This document shows positions 5,252 through 16,701 of a stretch of DNA of 16,820 nucleotides, in pieces. Source of the DNA: Comamonadaceae bacterium. Lineage in GTDB: Bacteria > Pseudomonadota > Gammaproteobacteria > Burkholderiales > Burkholderiaceae_C. Position 1 is the first letter of the stretch, and every line of letters begins with the position of its first letter. A program made the translations under genes and the position numbers. The stretch spans positions 1 through 16,820 of the forward strand of contig CANHGF010000014.1 in NCBI GenBank assembly GCA_947460065.1. Direction: 5' to 3'. A model generated the notes under the pieces. The model ran no database searches and had not been told where the DNA came from. It worked only from the letters and a program-made list of their open reading frames with translations.

Positions 5252-6241
5252 ATGAAGACTCGCATCCCCCGCCGTATTTTCTTGTCCCTGATTGCGACCG
5301 CCGGCCTGTGCGCGGCCCTGCCTAGCCAGGCTCAGAGCACAGGCGCCTGGCCGCAGCGCCCCATTCGATTGATCGTGCCTTTTCCACCCGGTGGCAATAC
5401 CGACGGCATTGCACGCCTGACTGCCGAGCGGCTGAGCCAGAGTTTGGGCCAGAGCGTGGTGGTTGAAAACCGCGCCGGCGGCAATGGGGCGATTGCGGCC
5501 GACGCGCTGGTCAAGGCGGCGCCCGACGGCTACACCCTGATGATGGCTGCCATGCCGGTGCTGGCCATCTTGCCGGCGATCAGCAAGACCAACTTTGACC
5601 CGCTGCGCGACTTTGTGCCCATCAGCATCGTCGGCAGCAACCCCTTCGTGATGGCGGTGCACAGATCGGTGCCAGCCAACAATGTGCGCGAATTTGCCGA
5701 CTTCATCCGCAAGAACCCGGGCAAATTCAACTACGCCTCGGGCGGCTCGGGCACCGTCTCGCACCTGTCGGCGGCGTTGTTTGCCAAGCGCGCCAATCTG
5801 GACATCGCCCATGTCAGCTATAAAGGTGGCAGCCCGGCGGTGACCGACCTGCTTGGCGGCCAGGTGCAGATGTATTTCGGCAACCTGTCTGAACTCGCAC
5901 CGCATGCTGCGGGGGGCCAGATTCGCATCATCGGCGTCTCCAGCTTGCAGCGCGCCAAGCAACTGCCCGATGTGCCCACCGTGGCCGAATCGGGCTTTAC
6001 TGGCTTCAAGACCCTGACCTGGAACGGCCTGGTGGCCCCGGCCGGCACACCTGCCGCAGTGGTCAACCGCATCGCCGCTGCGGTCAAGGACATGGTGGGC
6101 CAAAGCGATGCGGTCGCCCGCCTTCAGCAGATGGGGGTCGATCCGATCGGCGATACGCCCGCACAATTTGCCGACACGCTCAAAGCCGATCTGGCCACTT
6201 GGTCTGAGGCGGCCCGCGCCAGCAATTTGAAGGTCGAGTAA
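5252..6241 (+). CDS. TTT/Bug-family periplasmic solute-binding receptor
   Basis: A 329-residue secreted binding protein. Residues 1-27 form a signal peptide: basic start MKTRIPRR, a hydrophobic core around FLSLIATAGLCAAL, and a probable cleavage after S-Q-A27. The mature part shows the Bug/TctC pattern: WPQRPIRLIVPFPPGG (33-48), VENRAGGNG (71-79), PDGYTL (91-96). These receptors bind carboxylates or aromatic acids in the periplasm; they serve TctAB permeases, or act as orphans, which are very abundant in Burkholderiales. No TctA/TctB permease genes are in this window, so this looks like an orphan receptor associated with the catabolic operon. The ATG at 5252 is preceded by TTGGAG about 7 bases upstream. 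A strong hairpin follows the stop codon. Confidence 0.93.
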   Translation: MKTRIPRRIFLSLIATAGLCAALPSQAQSTGAWPQRPIRLIVPFPPGGNTDGIARLTAERLSQSLGQSVVVENRAGGNGAIAADALVKAAPDGYTLMMAAMPVLAILPAISKTNFDPLRDFVPISIVGSNPFVMAVHRSVPANNVREFADFIRKNPGKFNYASGGSGTVSHLSAALFAKRANLDIAHVSYKGGSPAVTDLLGGQVQMYFGNLSELAPHAAGGQIRIIGVSSLQRAKQLPDVPTVAESGFTGFKTLTWNGLVAPAGTPAAVVNRIAAAVKDMVGQSDAVARLQQMGVDPIGDTPAQFADTLKADLATWSEAARASNLKVE

Positions 6242-6293: not shown

Positions 6294-7064
6294 ATGAGCC
6301 TGCAAACCCGTACACCGAGCACCGATACCCTGGCCAGCCGCGCCAAGGTGGCGGTGGTGGTTCCAGCCACCAACACCATCGTTCAGCCCGAAATGGAAGC
6401 CATGCGCCCGCCAGGCGTGACCAACCACGTCACCCGGATGCGCCTGCCGGCCAGGCCCTATGACGATCAGGCTGCCTACAAGCGCGCCCTGGAGACAGAA
6501 AAGGGCGAGCTGGAAGAAGCGCTGGAGCTGGTGCTCTTGTGCGAGCCCCATGTGGTGGCGCACGGCCACTCCATCCACTCCTTTCGCGGCGATGCCGAGC
6601 AGGCCCTGGCCGAAGAGCAGCGGCTGGAAAAGCTCTGCGGCATTCCCTTCATCACACCCTCGCGCGCGGTGCTGGCGGGTCTGGAGGCCATAGGCCAGCC
6701 CAAGCGCATTGCCATCCTCACCCCCTACTGGCCGCCGGCCGACGAGATGATCGCCGCCTTCTTCACCGCCTGCGGCTACGAGGTGGTGAGCACCCACGGC
6801 CTGAAGTCCACCGGCCCGACCGCGGTGGCGCGCTTTACCAGCGAGCAGATCATGCAAGGCTTCGAGGCGGCCAACCATCCCGACGCCGATGCACTCATCC
6901 ACGTCGGCACCAACCTGCCCGTCTCAGCCCTGACCCCGCAGATCGAAACCCACCTGGGCAAACCCCTGATCGGCGTTAACGTCGCCACCTACTGGCTGGC
7001 CCTGCGCAGGCTGGGTATCAAGGATCCGCTGCCTGGCATGGGCCTGCTGGCAGAAAAGTACTGA
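6294..7064 (+). CDS. Arylmalonate decarboxylase / maleate isomerase-like (Asp/Glu racemase superfamily) protein without catalytic cysteines
   Basis: A 256-residue protein with the two-lobed Asp/Glu racemase fold of the Amdase family. Seen motifs: VAVVVPATNTIVQPEM (19-34), PSRAVLAGLEAIG (122-134) then RIAILTPYWPP (138-148), and GKPLIGVNVATYWLALRRLG (222-241). Relatives are maleate cis-trans isomerases (two Cys), arylmalonate decarboxylases (one Cys) and decarboxylase-like genes common in Comamonadaceae catabolic clusters. Here the first site reads AHGHSIHS (89-96) where maleate isomerases have a Cys-Thr-Ser, and the second reads HVGTNL (203-208) where SCTNL or similar is expected. Both usual catalytic cysteines are replaced. 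The start at 6294 has an excellent GGAGGG site 7 bases upstream; the frame extends to 6267 but without a ribosome site. Function is unassigned; a non-cysteine mechanism or a binding role is possible. Confidence 0.85.
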   Translation: MSLQTRTPSTDTLASRAKVAVVVPATNTIVQPEMEAMRPPGVTNHVTRMRLPARPYDDQAAYKRALETEKGELEEALELVLLCEPHVVAHGHSIHSFRGDAEQALAEEQRLEKLCGIPFITPSRAVLAGLEAIGQPKRIAILTPYWPPADEMIAAFFTACGYEVVSTHGLKSTGPTAVARFTSEQIMQGFEAANHPDADALIHVGTNLPVSALTPQIETHLGKPLIGVNVATYWLALRRLGIKDPLPGMGLLAEKY

Positions 7065-7078
7065 GGTCAGGCGCTCGC

Positions 7079-7162
7079 GTGGCGCGCCGGGTGGCGCGAC
7101 GGGTGGCATAGGTAGTGGCATAGGGAGTGGCATAGGGAGTGGGATGGGGAGTGGGATGGGGA
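7079..7162 (+). repeat. Left 12-bp tandem array leading into a REP head
   Basis: Seven consecutive 12-bp units, all beginning GTGG, run without gaps: GTGGCGCGCCGG, GTGGCGCGACGG, GTGGCATAGGTA, two copies of GTGGCATAGGGA, then two of GTGGGATGGGGA. The eighth unit in register (7163) is the 5' half of a complete REP-like hairpin. Units become more REP-like toward the REP. The array starts 14 bp after the stop codon of the Amdase-like gene. Positions 7135-7167 contain six G-tracts of 3-4 with loops of 2-3 bases, a strong G-quadruplex motif on the plus strand. Confidence 0.9.
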
Positions 7163-7192
7163 GTGGGAGCGCCGCCCCGGCGCGATGGGGCC
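7163..7192 (+). repeat. REP-like palindromic element (variant 1)
   Basis: Head GTGGGA, then stem GCGCCG, loop CCC, stem CGGCGC, then GATGGGGCC. The layout (head tetranucleotide plus short GC hairpin plus GAT) is that of RAYT-dependent REP elements known from Pseudomonas and other proteobacteria. It faces the reverse copy at 7221-7251, giving a BIME-like pair with a 28-bp spacer. No RAYT gene is in the window. Confidence 0.85.
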
Positions 7193-7220
7193 TTCAAAGG
7201 GGCTGCGGTGCCTGATCCAC

Positions 7221-7251
7221 CGCCGCATCGCTGCGAGGGCGCAGCTCCCAC
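7221..7251 (-). repeat. REP-like palindromic element (variant 2), reverse orientation
   Basis: On the minus strand: head GTGGGA, stem GCTGCG, loop CCCT, stem CGCAGC, then GATGCGGCG. The same 31 bases occur without a mismatch at 16612-16642. The stem differs from variant 1 by paired changes, so the hairpin rather than the sequence appears conserved. Confidence 0.85.
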
Positions 7252-7332
7252 AGCAGCTCCCACAGCAGCTCCCACAGCAGCTCCCACAGCAGCTCCCACA
7301 TCGGCTCCCACATCGGCTCCCACATCGGCTCC
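7252..7332 (-). repeat. Right 12-bp tandem array extending from the reverse REP head
   Basis: Read on the plus strand: four copies of AGCAGCTCCCAC (7252-7299), two of ATCGGCTCCCAC (7300-7323) and a partial one (7324-7332). On the minus strand each unit is GTGGGAGCTGCT or GTGGGAGCCGAT, that is, the head and left stem arm of a REP repeated in register, ending in the full REP at 7251-7221. It mirrors the left array at 7079-7162. Confidence 0.92.
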
Positions 7333-7350: not shown

Positions 7351-7380
7351 GTGGGAGCGCCGCCCCGGCGCGATGGGGCC
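7351..7380 (+). repeat. REP-like element (variant 1), copy without array
   Basis: Identical over 30 bases to 7163-7192. Its distal part GCGATGGGGCC (7370-7380) is repeated inverted at 7408-7418, perhaps the remnant of a facing partner. It lies 102 bp upstream of the pyrF start. The interval 7381-7470 otherwise shows no gene. Confidence 0.85.
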
Positions 7381-7482: not shown

Positions 7483-8325
7483 ATGAACTTCCTCGACATG
7501 CTCGCCGGCGCTGAGCGCGCCAACCAATCGATGCTGTGTGTGGGGCTGGATCCGGAGCCCACGCGCTTTCCGGGTCGGCTTAAGGGCGATGCCAACAAGA
7601 TCTACGATTTTTGTGCCGCCATCGTTGATGCCACCGCCGATCTGGTCTCTAGCTTCAAGCCGCAGATTGCCTACTTTGCGGCCCACCGGGCCGAGGGACA
7701 GCTTGAGCGGCTGATGGAGCATATGCGCCGGGTGGCACCGCAGGTGCCGATTATTTTGGATGCCAAGCGTGGCGACATCGGCTCGACCGCCGAGCAGTAC
7801 GCCCGCGAGGCCTTCGAGCGTTATGGGGCCGATGCGGTCACGCTGTCGCCCTTTATGGGCTGGGACTCGGTGGCGCCTTACCTGAAGTACGAAGGCAAAG
7901 GCGCTTTCTTGCTGTGCCGCACTTCCAACCCCGGCGGCGATGATTTGCAGAACCAGCGCCTGGCCTCGGTCGAGGGCCAGCCCCTGCTCTACGAACACGT
8001 GGCCCGGCTTGCGCAGGGCCCCTGGAACCTCAATGGCCAGCTCGGCCTGGTCGTCGGTGCCACCTATCCGGCCGAGATCGAGCGGGTGCGCCAGATTGCG
8101 CCCACCGTGCCCCTGCTCATTCCGGGCGTGGGCGCGCAGGGCGGCGATGCGGCGGCCACGGTCAAGGCCGGCTGGCGCGCCAAGCCCGATGGCAGCAGCG
8201 CCGGGCCGATCATCGTCAACTCCTCACGCGCCATCCTCTACGCCTCCAGCGAAGGCGACTACGCCCAGGCCGCGCGCCGGGTCGCCCAGCAAACCCGAGA
8301 CCTGCTCGAGGCGGCCAAGGGCTAA
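7483..8325 (+). CDS. pyrF: Orotidine 5'-phosphate decarboxylase
   Basis: A 280-residue protein matching type 2 OMP decarboxylases in length (~270-280 residues, longer than the ~230-residue E. coli type). It decarboxylates OMP to UMP, the last step of de novo pyrimidine synthesis, in the cytoplasm. The substrate-binding GLDP is at 21-24. The catalytic Asp-Lys-Asp network is in [15 protein letters not shown] (93-107, with D93, K95, D98). The later loops TSNPGG (147-152) and [11 protein letters not shown] (212-222) are also typical, as is the phosphate-gripping [15 protein letters not shown] region near 241-255. The start is ATG 7483: the frame is open back to 7339, but that part crosses a REP element and encodes low-complexity sequence. 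No Shine-Dalgarno is visible; see the TACAAT entry. The gene stands alone, not in a pyr operon. Confidence 0.97.
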
Positions 8326-16512: not shown

Positions 16513-16542
16513 GTGGGAGCGCCGCCTCGGCGCGATAGGGCG
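16513..16542 (+). repeat. REP-like element (variant 1b)
   Basis: GTGGGA, stem GCGCCG, loop CCT, stem CGGCGC, GATAGGG. It differs from the 7163 copy by C-to-T in the loop and in the tail. It lies 19 bp upstream of the asparaginase start, in the opposite orientation, and therefore in that gene's leader or promoter. Confidence 0.85.
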
Positions 16543-16553
16543 CATGATCTTTT

Positions 16554-16583
16554 GTGGGAGCGCCGCCTCGGCGCGATAGAGCC
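16554..16583 (+). repeat. REP-like element (variant 1b), second tandem copy
   Basis: Same head, stem and loop as 16513-16542, in direct orientation, 11 bp after it. The tail reads GATAGAGCC. Confidence 0.85.
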
Positions 16584-16611
16584 TATGAACGACGCCTGCT
16601 GGCTCAATCAA

Positions 16612-16642
16612 CGCCGCATCGCTGCGAGGGCGCAGCTCCCAC
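16612..16642 (-). repeat. REP-like element (variant 2), reverse orientation
   Basis: Identical over 31 bases to 7221-7251, including the GCTGCG/CGCAGC stem. It pairs with the forward copy at 16554-16583 in the same convergent arrangement as in the 7-kb cluster, but without any 12-bp array beyond its head. Confidence 0.85.
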
Positions 16643-16671
16643 ACCCCTCCGACGAGATTCGCTGGGGCTTT

Positions 16672-16701
16672 GTGGGAGCGCCGCCTCGGCGCGATAGGGC
16701 C
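16672..16701 (+). repeat. REP-like element (variant 1b), third forward copy
   Basis: Same head and stem as 16513-16542, tail GATAGGGCC. It is 22 bp beyond the stop codon of the partial minus-strand gene, a common location for REPs acting as 3' hairpins. Confidence 0.85.

Follow-up and report, generated by a model that had tools for sequence, protein, structure and literature searches.

Tandem arrays at the outward heads of REPINs, putative birthplaces of minisatellites

A REPIN with arrays on both heads next to pyrF

The stretch of DNA analyzed here (hereinafter, the window) comprises 16,820 nucleotides of a contig from a Comamonadaceae bacterium. Between a reading frame that ends at 7064 and the pyrF gene that starts at 7483, the window contains an inverted pair of REP sequences (REPIN), and tandem arrays run into both heads of this pair (Table 1). 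The gene starting at 7483 passes the cut-off of the pyrF_sub2 model; the frame ending at 7064 matches the EutA and arylmalonate decarboxylase models, in both cases well under the cut-off.

Table 1. REPs and associated arrays in the interval preceding pyrF
Feature	Positions	Strand	Composition	Basis
Left array	7079..7162	+	seven 12-bp units that continue in phase into the forward REP	direct reading, TRF
Forward REP	7163..7190	+	head GTGGGA, 6-bp stem GCGCCG/CGGCGC, loop CCC, tail GATGGGG	
REPIN	7163..7251	.	inverted REP pair, heads outward	direct reading, folding
Reverse REP	7222..7251	-	head GTGGGA, stem GCTGCG/CGCAGC, loop CCCT, tail GATGCGGC; GTGGGAGC at 7244-7251	
Right array	7252..7323	-	GTGGGAGCTGCT x4 (7252-7299) adjoining the REP, then GTGGGAGCCGAT x2 (7300-7323)	
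Stub	7324..7332	-	GGAGCCGAT, 9 nt, distal end of the right array	
Third REP	7351..7378	+	identical in sequence to the forward REP	

The original prediction, made from this DNA alone, described a facing REP pair with 12-bp arrays that enter both heads in register, and both direct reading and TRF bear this out. The seven units counted on the left are present, and the "six and a half" on the right resolve into six units plus the 9-nt stub. The arrays had also been called mirror images, which applies to their period and placement, whereas their sequences differ. On the left, direct reading gives GTGGCGCGCCGG, GTGGCGCGACGG, GTGGCATAGGTA, two copies of GTGGCATAGGGA and two of GTGGGATGGGGA; the first 6 nt of the REP are found in the two REP-nearest units (GTGGGATGGGGA) and 4 nt in the rest. 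On the right, the GTGGGAGCTGCT units are identical to the reverse REP over their initial 11 nt. The units thus match the REP start over 8-11 nt in the right array and over merely 4-6 nt in the left one, so that the proposed composition of a unit, REP head plus left stem arm, describes the right array but neither the left one nor the many units elsewhere that carry flanking DNA. TRF reports period 12 at 7079-7107, 7103-7166 and 7241-7332, along with a weaker overlapping period-6 row at 7123-7169. The GGAGC of the stub equals the GGAGC of the adjoining head, one period off, and this 5-nt match is a possible founding microhomology of the right array.

Each strand of the REPIN is predicted to fold into a single long hairpin, the base of which is formed by GTGGGAGC/GCTCCCAC (folding energies of -31.3 and -29.9 kcal/mol for the two strands, z of -3.73 and -2.73). 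The third REP has no array coming into its head by direct reading and TRF. Shortly downstream of it, CCCCATCGCAACGC resembles, by eye, a headless partner. The window also contains a second REP cluster at 16513-16699, with forward REPs at 16513, 16554 and 16672 and a reverse head at 16635-16642; TRF detects no arrays in this cluster.

Placement of tandem arrays relative to REPs

The distribution of arrays was assessed in a 478-kb sample of the genome of the window (G000; G013, G039 and G125 below are other genomes of the same genus) that contains 73 REPs. The sample consists of the contigs on which the first 100 of the 284 GTGGGAGC matches lie, with just the first 20 kb taken of contigs C1 and C4; it is biased in that array-bearing contigs have more such matches, and it includes the window, the source of the finding, which contributes 2 of the 12 head arrays. 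At a TRF score of at least 50, the sample holds 37 arrays, 12 on heads, none on tails, one over a whole REP and 24 elsewhere; without the window, the count is 10 on heads and 0 on tails. Random relocation (1000 runs) put a mean of 0.155 arrays on heads, with a maximum of 2, and 0.117 on tails. One of the 24 arrays elsewhere is the distal part of the left array of the window, and another begins 10 bp from a REP. At lower TRF scores, two weak 8-bp doublets (scores 32 and 34) touch tails. The original prediction had raised the question whether arrays occur away from REPs as often as next to them, as unrelated minisatellites would; with 12 of 37 arrays on heads, which make up a tiny share of the sequence, and none on tails, that reading is not favored.

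A larger set combining G000 and G013 (592 kb, 158 REPs), partly picked by matches, has 24 arrays on heads, one on a tail, five made of whole REPs and 35 elsewhere; the stretches of G013, G125 and G039 and loci L107-L113, which were selected through array or REP matches, serve for description only. A GTRGGA head with a perfect stem (at most one G-U pair) is found 170 times in these 592 kb, 158 times with a GA tail, and 79 of the 158 REPs belong to head-outward inverted pairs, the lengths of which peak at 71-72 and 88-90 bp. Two stem patterns match 49 and 114 times in G000, with 0 matches for the controls. The lone tail-side array (L114:1092-1172 in G013, from the set chosen by matches; period 33, score 134) was counted as a head array in the relocation analysis, where tail is the correct assignment, and is omitted from the comparison of REPINs and lone REPs below. 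Two further G013 loci near contig ends, L130 and L131 (contigs C33 and C41), are head-to-tail arrays of whole REPs with a 37-bp period.

The 12-bp period, taken in the original prediction as a feature of the class, turns out to be local: periods vary between loci and between genera. Those in the G000 and G013 set include 12, 13, 15, 16, 17, 18, 24, 26, 27, 30, 34, 35, 36, 39 and 50, and overall they range from 9 to about 70 bp, the unit usually consisting of a REP prefix plus flanking DNA. The shortest chain period was observed in G125 (L344, contig C150), where two 9-bp units GTGGGAGCT are in register with a REP head.

Similar arrays were sought in a GTDB scan (one genome per species, with three near-adjacent heads as the query), which yielded at least 120 stretches. 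Among the matches listed, there are 132 arrays in 118 loci, and 26 of these arrays end in a strict REP hairpin as the last copy; judged by eye, about 10 further arrays among these matches end in imperfect Pseudomonas-type REPs, and many others, the periods of which are divisible by three, resemble coding repeats. The REP-ended arrays among the matches listed include records from Luteibacter, Pseudomonas, Methyloversatilis, Thioalkalivibrio and Chromatiaceae. Three genera were then represented by 400-kb tiles per genome, all of which contain tails as well as heads (TRF score of at least 50). The head and tail counts are 11 and 0 in Methyloversatilis sp. XJ19-49 (25 REPs; relocation mean of 0.08 heads), 15 and 0 in Pseudomonas sp. 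Q11 (111 REPs, one whole-REP array; 0.24 heads), and 4 and 0 in Luteibacter sp. OK325 (42 REPs, six whole-REP arrays; 0.10 heads). The Luteibacter tiles are contiguous on a single contig; those of Methyloversatilis, in which six 20-kb tiles within the first 520 kb were skipped, and of Pseudomonas were picked with the match list in view, which affects array frequency. All three genera have pairs in which each head carries a TRF array (three in Methyloversatilis, two in Pseudomonas, one in Luteibacter), and the double array of the window is therefore not unique. The predicted anchoring at heads thus holds in the four sampled genera, with the single tail exception in G013. Judging from sequence comparison, REPIN arrays sit almost exclusively at the outer ends and have a locus-dependent unit length, and these ends look like birthplaces of minisatellites.

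Copy number at orthologous loci

The pyrF site of G013 harbors the same REPIN within flanks that are 94-95% identical to those of G000; the Y1 protein of G013 is 98% identical to its G000 counterpart. On the left side, G013 has four segments, namely GTGGCCGCCGAT, a 10-nt segment, GTGGCATATGCA and GTGGCATAGGGA, followed by the REP; on the right side, there is a stub GGAGCCGCT and a single unit GTAGGAGCCGCT, again followed by the REP. Compared with G013, G000 has a surplus of three units on the left (one GTGGCATAGGGA and two GTGGGATGGGGA) and of five on the right (one GTGGGAGCCGAT and four GTGGGAGCTGCT). This surplus is REP-proximal, and the REP-adjacent units are the most REP-like; growth in G000 would be a simpler reading than loss in G013. 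Array length also differs at two more loci, a point in favor of the original prediction. At one of these, flank and REP are single in G013 (L116) and G000 (L101) repeats the flank together with the initial 7 nt of the G000 REP; at the other (L109 in comparison with L114), there are two additional REP-adjacent units in G013. At the three shared head-array loci, which were partly chosen via array matches, the G013 array is accordingly longer once and shorter twice. The units of the G000 array at L101 start with GTGGGAGGGC, as does the G013 REP (GTAGGAGGGCCG), whereas the adjacent G000 REP has GCGCCG; this array may preserve a record of an earlier REP.

The gene order of the pyrF region is shared by G125, which has neither REPIN nor array there, and by G007, which lacks an intact REPIN and such an array. 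In G007, a headless REP-like fragment, CCGCCCCCGGCGCGATG, was noticed in the corresponding intergenic stretch upstream of pyrF (L137). The absence of the intact element in two relatives with the same gene order is compatible with either insertion or loss.

Composition of the units and their junctions

The unit adjoining a REP tracks that REP for k nucleotides and then switches to the flank or to an earlier unit. Among the 53 of 73 chains with k of at least 6 (the 20 with a shorter match were omitted), the REP-side breakpoint is in the 5' arm in 42, at the arm end or in the loop in 9, in the head in one and beyond in one; the chain rule, under which units start with at most one mismatch from GTGGGAGC and full REPs are excluded, under-sees breakpoints below about 6 nt or past the hairpin. 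In the 47 of 55 collected arrays that have two or more units, REP-likeness is greater for proximal than for distal units in 31, smaller in 5 and tied in 11, which is partly expected because the leftmost unit is flank. Founding junctions are clean in 13 of the 73 chains, with overlaps of 0 nt (four cases), 1 nt (four), 3 nt (three), 5 nt (one, the GGAGC of the right array of the window) and 10 nt (one). Overlaps of at least 3 nt thus occur at 5 of the 13, compared with about 5% estimated by hand for random sequence, an excess that is soft because the filter for clean junctions favors overlap.

Arrays are present on 28 of 129 REPIN heads and on 14 of 122 lone REPs (Fisher p 0.04), a difference affected by the choice of the Methyloversatilis and Pseudomonas tiles with the match list in view. 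In G000 and the three-genus samples, lone REPs have 14 head arrays and no tail arrays. Among 18 lone-REP arrays, a partner head with 0-1 mismatches is present 64-82 nt away in four, whereas the remaining 14 have no candidate partner with fewer than 2 mismatches.

When a loose rule is used to build chains, both sides bear one in 40 of 134 REPINs, compared with 34 expected under independence. The REP-adjacent period is common to both sides in 8 of these 40 as against 3.62 in shuffles, and 8 was reached in 5 of 500 shuffles. The run shared across the REPIN averages 3.9, compared with 3.32 in 200 shuffles (maximum 3.72), and runs of at least 6 occur in 4 as against 2.04; this sharing is a hint only because the shuffles crossed genomes. 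At two loci of Pseudomonas sp. Q11 (L404, REPIN 6011-6097, and L288, REPIN 84-171), units occur in inverted orientation on both sides of one REPIN, namely GTGGGAGCTGACCT and the near-identical 20-mers GTGGGAGCAAAATGGAATCT and GTGGGAGCAAAGTGAAATCT, which hints at template switching across the hairpin.

How the arrays could arise

We lean toward the reading that these arrays are minisatellites born at the outward REPIN heads through replication slippage (template misalignment), one of the two causes suggested in the original prediction and the one that fits best, albeit with modest confidence. Given that the two heads form the predicted base of the hairpin, a head would be the first part encountered by a polymerase on either strand, whichever side it arrives from. 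The polymerase would copy the flank and some 6-17 nt of the REP and then stall in the stem; the nascent 3' end would slip to an upstream site, and the stretch would be recopied. The initial slip would set the period, later slips would add units on the REP side, and the tails, being inside the hairpin, would almost never acquire arrays. The comparisons of loci and genomes contribute three points to this case, namely the head-side placement, the end of the REP-derived part in the first arm or loop, and the REP-adjacent position of the orthologous surplus; the single hairpin with the heads at its base, from which the head-only polarity would follow, is a folding prediction. Slippage is favored also in that it needs no extra factor, uses the local flank, and yields variable periods and breakpoints in the stem arm. 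The arrays differ between G000 and G013, two genomes in which the search for a REP-flanked RAYT gave no match. Several observations speak against slippage: lone REPs have head-only arrays as well, whereas a stem without a partner would be expected to stall polymerases whichever side they come from; 8 of the 13 clean founding junctions have an overlap of 0-1 nt; and there are the tail-side array of G013 and the two weak tail doublets of G000. Lone-REP arrays could stem from the time when the partner still existed; in the accessible text of the paper that describes REPINs, lone REPs are considered REPIN remnants (PMC3116915).

The other suggested cause was processing by a RAYT transposase. Such an enzyme would nick the strand immediately before the head, on its 5' side; synthesis from the free 3' end would then extend into the REP, and once the product is rejoined to the bound 5' end, a REP prefix would be present twice. 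This scheme would directly account for the head-only polarity, lone REPs included. As far as the accessible part of the source goes, TnpAREP cleaves at C|T on the 5' or 3' side of REPs, and the 3'-OH left by the cut is what HuH enzymes use in priming or strand transfer (PMC8266576). A CT closes the unit before the next head in 39 of 49 cases in Pseudomonas and in 21 of 27 in Methyloversatilis, but the flanks of REPs also end in CT (57 of 111 and 18 of 25, respectively), so that the unit ends are partly inherited. At the REP side, C|T is possible in just 7 of 53 chains, which leaves strand transfer at C|T unsupported. CC or CA cleavage is reported for the GTGG head of one enzyme (PMC8266576, in its accessible part); the breakpoint is C|C in 5 of 53 chains and C|A in 2. 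Units with long flanks would need remote nicks. REP-flanked cognate RAYTs are present in the Luteibacter, Methyloversatilis and Pseudomonas genomes (Y1 genes with nearby REPs: 1 of 1, 1 of 2 and, in strain Q11, 2 of 4, respectively). By contrast, the search for a RAYT gene proposed in the original prediction gave a single Y1_Tnp match each in G000, G013, G039 and G125, no REP of this family lying closer than about 1.5 kb to any of them, and this Y1 gene is matched in 79 of the 81 genomes of the genus as against just 15 for the REP pattern. The completeness of G000 is given as 79% (100% for G013), so that a RAYT could be missing from that assembly; an unlinked, diverged or lost RAYT is possible. 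On balance, we consider RAYT-primed growth the weaker rival of slippage and rather unlikely. The Y1 gene of G000 (L164, contig C51, 6579-7274), next to a frame that was read by eye as glutamate synthase, scores 71.5 bits against a cut-off of 80 for the NCBIfam REP-associated transposase and has no REP nearby; it is possibly a domesticated RAYT-like gene. Near the Y1 locus of G039 (L426), one unrelated-looking stem was observed.

Unequal recombination of whole REPs, or decay of tandem REP clusters that leaves headed stubs, is improbable. Tandem arrays of whole REPs do exist at scores of at least 50 (five in the G000 and G013 set, one in Pseudomonas and six in Luteibacter), but the strict test detects no full REP among the 434 inner copies of the 132 GTDB-scan arrays, among the matches listed. 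Furthermore, many units match the REP as far as its first stem arm and are local flank from there on, the three identical neighboring units GTGGGAGCGCCGCCTCG of L104 have no second stem arm, and none of the orthologs at the three compared loci has the same units as full REPs. That a REPIN landed in or beside a pre-existing, otherwise unrelated GTGG minisatellite, an origin compatible with the distal left units of the window, which have GTGG alone in common with the REP, is very improbable given the head-not-tail placement in the samples of four genera, units that vary by locus yet start like the local REP, the pyrF site without intact REPIN or such array in G125 (REPIN-free) and G007, the ortholog with REPIN and without array at L116, and the lack, among the orthologs seen, of any with the array but without the REPIN.

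If slippage at the hairpin base is the cause, REPIN heads could be a general directional source of minisatellites, with two outward arrays per element, each with its own period, no transposase involved, and units that may cross sides by template switching; this extension is put forward tentatively. One polar process would then tie mobile palindromes to minisatellites, and head-born arrays could explain the origin of many intergenic VNTRs in REP-bearing bacteria. The polarity makes it testable whether a RAYT or replication through the hairpin drives REP instability. Strains could be told apart by means of the arrays, which would also distort REP counts that are based on short head words.

Relation to known repeats

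The following comparisons refer to the accessible parts of the cited papers. Like published REPINs, the elements described here are inverted REP pairs that face head-out and are separated by a short spacer (PMC3116915). Clusters in that work consist either of whole REPINs repeated in tandem together with flanks or of whole REPs at even distances (72 and 112 bp), and its accessible text makes no mention of head-anchored arrays built from partial heads. The GTAG-tagged REP superfamily likewise has a terminal GTRG motif by a short stem, dimers and clusters that contain flanks (PMC3733652); these clusters reiterate singletons or dimers plus flank, whereas here a head fragment is reiterated. The REP classes of fluorescent pseudomonads similarly have a GTGGGAG head, a palindrome and a GAT or GAA tail, and have cognate RAYTs; head-anchored arrays of the present sort were not found in what could be seen of that paper (PMC3686654). 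More generally, the accessible text of five papers (PMC3733652, PMC3116915, PMC8266576, PMC3686654, PMC2817692) contains tandem clusters of whole REPs or whole REPINs and no head-anchored arrays of partial units, and a term search for such arrays in the accessible part of PMC12306157 gave no match. Full-text literature searches, which cover little of the subscription literature, yielded no description of head-anchored partial-unit arrays; in the original prediction, no described REP class was known to have a head-anchored array on both partners.

Bacterial minisatellites, or VNTRs, consist of short tandem units, the copy number of which changes between relatives. REPs and minisatellites are thus both known; what appears to be new, as far as the literature searches reach, is that minisatellites are anchored to REPs in a specific and polar manner. 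In contrast to ordinary VNTRs, the arrays described here start from a single, defined end of a mobile palindrome, are polar, and have their breakpoint in the stem.
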